DNA from: Auriscalpium vulgare | Taxonomy: Eukaryota; Basidiomycota; Agaricomycetes; Russulales; Auriscalpiaceae | DNA length: 64,000 nucleotides | Assembly: GCA_019915015.1 (NCBI GenBank) | Contig: JAHBBC010000016.1 | Location: 558,001 to 622,000, forward strand | Reading direction: 5' to 3' | Part shown: positions 35,825 through 37,750 of the stretch, piece after piece | Layout of the letters: the number at the start of each line of letters is the position of its first letter | How positions within the stretch are numbered: the stretch's first letter is position 1 | Position numbers and translations under genes: made by a program | The notes under the pieces: generated by a model | Seen by the model: only the letters and a program-made list of their open reading frames with translations | The model's database searches: none | Told to the model about the DNA's origin: nothing

Positions 35825-37750
35825 ATGACTAGTGCTATTCTCGAGACAATGCACAAGCACCCGCGCTCCATCTTGAGTCTTGTCGACGATACATTCCGCT
35901 ATGCTATGGAGAAGATGTTCACGGCATCCGCGCCGCTTGCAAAGCTTGCTGAAGCTGCTGTAGTCAGGTGCGTGTTGCCAATGGTGTCCGCTAACATCAA
36001 TTATAACATAACTTAATGAGTTTCCCAGTCGCCTTGATGCTATCACAGTTGGCCGACTGTGCATCAGAACTGCAGAGAAAACCTACGAGTACCCTCCTGC
36101 CGTTCAAGACCCGCTCACGGATCTGTCGGCAGAGATTCGCGTCATTAACAACATCTTCTGGGTACGCCTGTGTACCATGGGTGATCTTGGATTCGCAGAG
36201 GCGTACATGTTCGGCGACGTCGAGTGCGACGACTTACTCTCAGTCTTCCTGGTGCGTGCCAGCACGTCGAACACACACGTCTCTGACTGGTGAGGCATAG
36301 ATTTTTCTTCGTAGCAAGGATGAGCTCTCGGGTCTTGATTCGCTGCCGTCCTGGATGTTCAACATCTCAAAGCGCATCGCCGCCTACCGCTTCCGAGGAT
36401 CGCTTAGCAATTCAAGTTCAAACATCTCGGCGCACTATGACCTATCAGACGACATGTTTAAAGGTAAGTCTCGCATGCGTCTCAACAGGGTGCTGCTCAC
36501 GTAGTCCACACAGCCTTTCTCTCGGAAGACATGACCTACTCCTCACGACCTAAAACCGACAAGCCAGCCACCGTTGCCTTCAAACACCTTCCCAATTGCC
36601 ATTGACACCCTTCACAAAGCACAGCTGCGCAAACTTGACCATTTGATTCGCAAGGCACACATTCGTCCAGGGCACCGCATCCTCGACGTGGGGTGCGGCT
36701 GGGGCTCGCTGGCTCTCCAGATCGCACGAACTGTTCCGGGTACGCAAGTCGATGCCATCACGCTCTCGGACAATCAATGTGCATACGTGAAGCGCCTCGT
36801 CCAGACCGTGGGCCTGCAGGACCGTATACGGGTGTACCTGATGGATTATCGCGAGATGCCGGAGGAGTGGCAAGGCGTGTTTGATCGCGTAGTAAGCGTG
36901 GAGATGATTGAGCACGTTGGAGGAGAGTACTTGCGCGACTTCTGGGGCGCTTTGGACGCGGTGATGAAGAAGTGGGGGGCGGCAGGCGTTGTGCAGTCCA
37001 TAACGATTCCCGAAGCGCGTATGTCGTCATTCCCCCATTGAAAGGATCCCTTTGCGTTGACCTGTTGCTCAGGGCTCGAGACTTACAGAAAGGATGTTGA
37101 TTTCATCCAAAAATGGGTACGGTCTATATGCTGATTCGACACGACGTAGTCACTGATGAACGTTGAATATTCAGAGTACGAAACTGCTCTACCATCCCTT
37201 TATGGCGACTGACTGACTTGCTAGTCTTCCCCGGTGGCGTCCTGCCTACCTTGACCCAGCTCGTTCAGACGCTCGAGTCCGCGACCTCCGGCAGACTTCT
37301 TGTCGAGTCCGTTTCGAATATCGGTCCGCACTATGCACGAACGTTGCGGGAATGGAGGCGCAATTTTTGTCGAGAATTCGACGACGCCATCGCCCCGGCG
37401 CTGCGCGCCCTCCACCCCGGCGTGTTCAATGGGCCTCAAGGCGAGCTGGAATTGGGCGTATTCCGCCGAAAGTGGATATGTACGTCTTCTCAAAGTCATT
37501 TCAGCATCCAGTGTTTTGTAAATTGATTGTCTCGCAGATTACTTGTGAGTGTCATAGCAAGACGGAAACACGAAAACCGCTGATCTCGTACCGTGTAGCT
37601 GTTATTGTGAGAGCGGATACACCACGCGGATGCTCAACGGTGCCTTCCTTCATGCCATCTGCAAAAGTTGGTTGACTCACCCTATCTGCAGACCATATTA
37701 TTACGTTCACGCGCGAAGGAAATGAGGACCTTGAATGCGATGTGGACTGA
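35825..37750 (+). CDS. Cyclopropane-fatty-acyl-phospholipid synthase-like SAM methyltransferase with microexons
   Basis: SAM-dependent methyltransferase of the CFA synthase/mycol-cyclase family, modifying unsaturated acyl chains of phospholipids. Proposed exons: 35825-35967, 36029-36251, 36301-36463, 36514-36572, 36625-37018, 37073-37116, a 1-nt exon at 37175, 37225-37479, a 7-nt exon 37538-37544, 37599-37639 and 37692-37750; they sum to 462 residues. Motifs: SAHYDLSDDMFK, SEDMTYSS, the SAM loop DVGCGWGSLALQIA, SVEMIEHVG, IFPGG and YCESGYTTR. The I of IFPGG exists only with the 1-nt exon. The junction at 36,573-36,624 is doubtful: the proposed intron removes TLHKAQ, which itself resembles family sequence, so a one-base frame break near 36,545-36,600 is the alternative. 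Confidence 0.82.

Follow-up and report, generated by a model that had tools for sequence, protein, structure and literature searches.

A putative one-nucleotide exon in CFS1-like cyclopropane-fatty-acid synthase genes of an agaricomycete

Introduction

Among the papers we found, exons of a single nucleotide in protein-coding nuclear genes have been described from plants (two genes) and from Fusarium (one P450 subfamily) (PMC4674806, PMC8831610, PMC12940212). Arabidopsis APC11 has a constitutive exon of a single A placed between an AG and a GT, for which stepwise removal of the introns was proposed (PMC4674806). The 1-nt microexons of VPS55 and APC11 are conserved over long times in land plants and are missing from reference annotations. 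They are supported by RNA-seq and RT-PCR, and the VPS55 exon is partly alternative (PMC8831610). In fungi, the CYP621A P450 genes of Fusarium carry a 1-nt exon that is confirmed by RNA reads and that its authors describe as the first for a fungal gene (PMC12940212, 2026). Very small exons are also known from basidiomycete P450 genes with introns of 45–55 nt, in a white-rot fungus; the smallest reported in that work has 6 nt (PMC1184071).

Here we describe a putative one-base exon in a CFS1-like gene. It resembles that of CYP621A in several ways: both lie in a conserved motif of a fungal nuclear gene whose halves are out of phase without the base, and both are often missed in annotation (PMC12940212). 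The Fusarium genes differ in being from an ascomycete, in having a G in a glycine codon and in a combined intron region of 139 nt in F. graminearum (PMC12940212). Our gene encodes a basidiomycete lipid enzyme, and its one-base exon is predicted from the sequence. The base is mostly A and has been retained in five paralogues and, it appears, throughout the class. The single A between AG and GT is shared with APC11, which differs as a plant gene with a far longer upstream intron (the A is at position 333) that was tested with GFP constructs (PMC4674806). The exon is thus an apparently class-wide addition to a very small known set (plant APC11 and VPS55, Fusarium CYP621A).

An enzyme of the same kind, likened here by name, is encoded by cfs1 of Coprinopsis cinerea, the loss of which blocks fruiting-body initiation (PMC8805025, PMC4082614). 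Among the papers listed by our literature search, none describes a 1-nt exon for cyclopropane-fatty-acid (CFA) synthases; earlier notice is possible, for example in the 2006 cfs1 paper.

Gene model and the one-nucleotide exon

The window (the whole stretch analysed, 64,000 nt) belongs to contig C16 of a 51.6-Mb, 96-contig genome (G000). The initial annotation had called the gene CFA-synthase-like, and this identity holds. The PF02353 (CMAS family) profile matches it above the curated cut-off at C16:594589-595047 and 595191-595394 (window 36589-37047 and 37191-37394). The closest public relatives of its paralogue on contig C18, among the matches listed, are basidiomycete CFS1-like cyclopropane-fatty-acyl-phospholipid synthases; the top match, with 96% identity, is from Auriscalpium vulgare (Russulales, Agaricomycetes), a species to which the genome is close. 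The window gene is a predicted enzyme of this same type. It has 10 placed exons and 9 introns of 49–61 nt, and its stop codon is at 37748-37750; the initial annotation mentioned neither this stop nor the last intron. The features of its 3' part are as follows, in window coordinates.

35825..37750, plus strand: CFS1-like cyclopropane-fatty-acid synthase gene, exon 4 disrupted in comparison with the paralogues (PF02353 matches, exon model, homologues)
37073..37116, plus strand: exon 5, C-terminal residues DFIQKW (exon model)
37117..37174, plus strand: phase 0 intron, 58 nt, GTACGG...ATTCAG, branch-point-like CTRAY 22 nt before its end (exon model)
37175..37175, plus strand: one-nucleotide exon, A, base 1 of ATC, the codon that gives the I in I-F-P-G-G (exon model, structure enumeration, paralogues C18, C10, C1 and C16b)
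37176..37224, plus strand: phase 1 intron, 49 nt, GTACGA...TGCTAG, CTRAY 16 and 12 nt before its end (exon model)
37225..37479, plus strand: exon 7, starting TC TTC CCC GGT (FPGG...) and ending in the codon after KWI (exon model)
37480..37537, plus strand: intron, 58 nt, GTACGT...TCGCAG (exon model)
37538..37544, plus strand: seven-nucleotide exon ATTACTT, Y-Y-F of KWIYYFCYCE (exon model; counterparts in C10, C1 and C16b)
37545..37598, plus strand: intron, 54 nt, GTGAGT...GTGTAG (exon model)
37640..37691, plus strand: last intron, 52 nt, GTGCCT...CTGCAG (exon model)

Exon 5 closes with TGG (W) at 37114-37116. When the A at 37175 is included, the translation reads DFIQKWIFPGG, and the frame is open to the stop; when it is omitted, the frame is lost. 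The two solved bacterial enzymes in our alignments have an uninterrupted K-Y-I-F-P-G-G spacing, which matches the reading with the one-base exon. We estimate a probability of about 93% that this CFS1-like gene has a 1-nt exon at 37175, that is, two introns inside the W-I-F-P-G-G codons and one base apart.

Paralogues in the same genome

The initial annotation had proposed a comparison with related genes. The same structure was found in all five paralogous loci, the window included; the other four are listed below.

C18:583.5-584.3k: CFS1-like paralogue C18 (L007), one-base exon catag-A-gtgcgc
C10:621.8-622.7k: CFS1-like paralogue C10 (L010), one-base exon tatag-A-gtatgc
C1:1806.2-1807.1k, minus strand: CFS1-like paralogue C1 (L009), one-base exon ttcag-G-gtgggt
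C16:382.0-382.8k: CFS1-like paralogue C16b (L014/L016), one-base exon tacag-A-gtgcgc

In the window and in these four, the flanking coding stretches are out of phase by exactly one base, and that base lies between AG and GT at the same codon. It is A in four loci and G in C1, where the codon becomes GTC for valine. The C18 gene, read with the one-base exon, gives an uninterrupted protein of 531 residues, and the frame is open from the methyltransferase core to the stop in the window gene and in C10.

We enumerated the in-frame, stop-free structures around the junction, with donors from −12 to +30, introns of at least 35 nt, a middle exon of at most 30 nt and GC donors for single introns only. 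This gave 2 structures for the window, 8 for C18, 4 for C10, 7 for C1 and 12 for C16b. The one-base exon is the only structure common to the five loci. The claim that the single A at 37175 is an exon between introns of 58 and 49 nt is upheld, at the same coordinates. The only other structure enumerated in the window has one intron whose donor, a GC, lies 13 nt downstream; it would give KWVRSIFFPGG. When the intron span of the window was dinucleotide-shuffled 4000 times, 2.3% of the shuffles contained an AGNGT leaving two introns of at least 45 nt. Over the five loci the chance is 2.1–6.4% each; the product, 5.7e-8, is only a rough guide because the loci share ancestry.

The flanking introns of the five loci are of normal size (49–61 nt), and nine of the ten have CTRAY 8–40 nt before their end, the second intron of C1 being the exception. 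Between paralogues, the intron interiors are 46–63% identical, compared with 51 ± 5% for shuffled pairs, and the next exon (240 nt) is 62–78% identical; the introns have diverged to the level of shuffled sequence. The five genes form one clade with three A. vulgare proteins (support 96/96), and the duplications that produced them therefore took place within or near the Auriscalpium lineage.

More distant CMAS genes were also inspected. At the corresponding place, those at C25:253.5k and C3:128k lack F-P-G-G and, by eye, an intron pair, and the gene at C1:2713.8-2714.6k has K-Y-V-F-P-G within one unbroken frame. Within this genome, the one-base exon is therefore a feature of the CFS1-like group. 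The PF02353 matches on C29, on C22 and at C1:2193k were covered by a motif screen.

Homologues in other fungi

Three homologue searches, with the best 120 of more than 6000 matches taken from each, gave 163 different proteins. According to their source labels, short contigs (lgn or jgi, 1.6–6.1 kb) account for 14 of them, and 149 are NCBI-sourced. We infer that the lgn short contigs are assembled transcripts. Judged by length alone, two contigs (P0056 and P0070) have no room for eight introns of 45 nt, with 180 and 196 nt to spare, and the other 12 are long enough. The species include Russulales, Auriculariales and Cantharellales, and judging by names there was no homologue from outside the Agaricomycetes among the matches listed. 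The C. cinerea protein was not among them, and that of C. marcescibilis was (P0097, V). Viral contigs were searched for contaminating fungal sequence with the gene, and none matched.

All 14 short-contig proteins have a single I between K-W and F-P-G-G, in agreement with the initial annotation, in which the ATC codon supplies the I of a conserved I-F-P-G motif. The 149 NCBI-sourced proteins are far more varied at this place: V (33), VL (24), VI (17), I (15), AI (7), VF (4), VV (2), one-off residues or inserts of 2 to 51 residues (31), no recognisable K-W before the motif (12) and no motif (4). The difference in the frequency of I is large (Fisher's exact p = 1.3e-12), with no correction for relatedness; the 163 proteins are related rather than independent, and the 149 were not thinned. 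P0121, which has F-M for F-I, reads W-I-FPGG.

Much of this variety is what mis-annotation of the junction would produce. V followed by I, L, F or V (47 of 149) is expected when the GT four bases inside GTRNGT serves as donor, and a lone V when the G of the GT or of the AG is taken over. Part of the 33 lone-V models may have genuine G exons, as in C1, and some of the 15 models with I may already include the one-base exon. The three A. vulgare models read VI, SMPFI and TAHQPSDPFFTV, which are other enumerated solutions of their counterparts C18, C10 and C1, respectively. Entries from Rhizoctonia solani differ among themselves at the junction (V, VI, SKHL, PDSVGPV and a 44-residue insert), as do those from Agaricus bisporus (VI, AI and a 51-residue insert). 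The genome model of Heterobasidion irregulare has V, compared with I in its nearest short-contig relative.

The one-base exon is probably an old feature of the Agaricomycetes that is mis-annotated in most of the public models examined. We consider it fairly likely that it has been kept in CFS1-type genes since the common ancestor of the class, through gene duplication and a complete turnover of the flanking introns. If this is true across mushroom-forming fungi, such exons can be stable over very long times while all the surrounding sequence turns over, and no fungal 1-nt exon with a wider range would be known; the family is one that Coprinopsis needs for fruiting. The models of the family would then also contain a systematic error, with many public proteins to be corrected at a conserved motif. 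Since cfs1 is 64-fold up in stage 1 primordia of C. cinerea (PMC4082614), existing RNA-seq should be informative on the exon.

In seven NCBI-sourced proteins (P0026, P0039, P0043, P0105, P0113, P0146 and P0163) the motif reads W-A-I-F-P-G-G, which is expected if the donor of the first intron is a GC (GCNNGT). First introns of the GC-AG type are thus suggested for some Mycena, Favolaschia and Agaricus.

Alternative readings of the junction

The best-surviving alternative, which we regard as improbable, is that one intron with another donor or acceptor is removed and that the protein is slightly longer, as in the public models. In C18, TGGGTAA/GTTCAG would give W-V-I-F-P-G-G, and in the window the GC donor would give WVRSIFFPGG. 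Single-intron solutions of this kind are available in four of the five loci (not in C10), longer middle exons occur in C10, C1 and C16b, and the V-[ILFV] forms annotated in the 47 NCBI-sourced proteins are in line with it. However, no such solution is common to the five loci. The insertion is absent from the 14 short-contig proteins and from the two bacterial enzymes, and near-identical proteins of one species (R. solani, A. bisporus) are annotated differently at the junction.

It is very unlikely that there is no exon and that a base is missing through pseudogene decay or an error of sequencing or assembly. Some observations speak for it. About 146 nt of window exon 4 (36514-37018), not a multiple of three, are missing relative to the C18 paralogue, a break that the initial annotation did not mention. 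The missing part includes a conserved stretch after DMTYS, and the 5' half of the gene is out of frame with its 3' half and runs into a stop. The reading frame is intact in the C18 copy and not in the window copy, which may be a pseudogene; by eye, a weak extra or unplaced intron could formally bridge the break. C10 and C16b have one frame break each, upstream (by eye). C1 has two in-frame stops where its relatives have W (by eye), with W at the late stop site in its A. vulgare counterpart P0011, and keeps its G exon and a 7-nt exon. Contig C54 (L002, L006; C54:78.3-79.4k) carries the window locus a second time, with insertions and deletions as the only differences. The compared stretch of about 3.8 kb has 10 differing columns; at least 3 of these are at its ends, and one, at 37229, falls in the exon that follows the one-base exon. 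C54 is probably an unmerged duplicate contig with sequencing errors. Against error or decay at the junction itself, C54 retains the A and its splice sites, the same one-base gap with the same flanking sites occurs in five loci, C18 is otherwise uninterrupted, and the proteins of other fungi agree. The paralogues thus largely refute this explanation.

A single non-canonical intron that absorbs a flanking base and leaves W-V-F-P-G-G, perhaps with a natural valine as in the 33 lone-V models, is hardly credible: it would require non-GT-AG sites, and since in every one of the five loci a G follows TGG and a G precedes T[CA]TTC, one intron could yield V and never I, contrary to the short-contig proteins and to the Heterobasidion pair.

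Splicing of the one-base exon

With the one-base exon, the W-I-F-P-G-G codons would hold a phase 0 and a phase 1 spliceosomal intron separated by a single base. Each intron is about 50–60 nt long and has a GT and an AG of its own and, in most cases, a site resembling a branch point. Recognition is probably by intron definition. It is hardly possible for two spliceosomes to handle introns one base apart at the same time. Stepwise removal under intron definition is therefore likely, with a net addition of one base and the frame kept; this is similar to the proposal for Arabidopsis APC11 (PMC4674806). We infer that this organism splices the exon in this way and that the exon dates from an ancestor of the class. 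If so, the genes would form a natural series for studying the splicing of introns one base apart, and for asking whether skipping of the base switches the enzyme off.

The seven-nucleotide exon

The initial annotation had also proposed that ATTACTT (37538-37544) is an exon giving Y-Y-F. Our exon model agrees, and counterparts occur in C10 (ACTACTT), C1 (ATTATTT) and C16b (ACTATCT). Of the 163 proteins, 149 were compared at this place. X-Y-Y-[FY] follows the W in 13 of 13 short-contig proteins, and 22 of the 136 NCBI-sourced proteins have forms such as ICDC, ICTC or LCAC. C18 (L007:2381-2482) lacks the intron downstream of the seven-nucleotide stretch, which there runs on into the next exon; an intron appears to have been lost, so that the microexon is fused to its neighbour.
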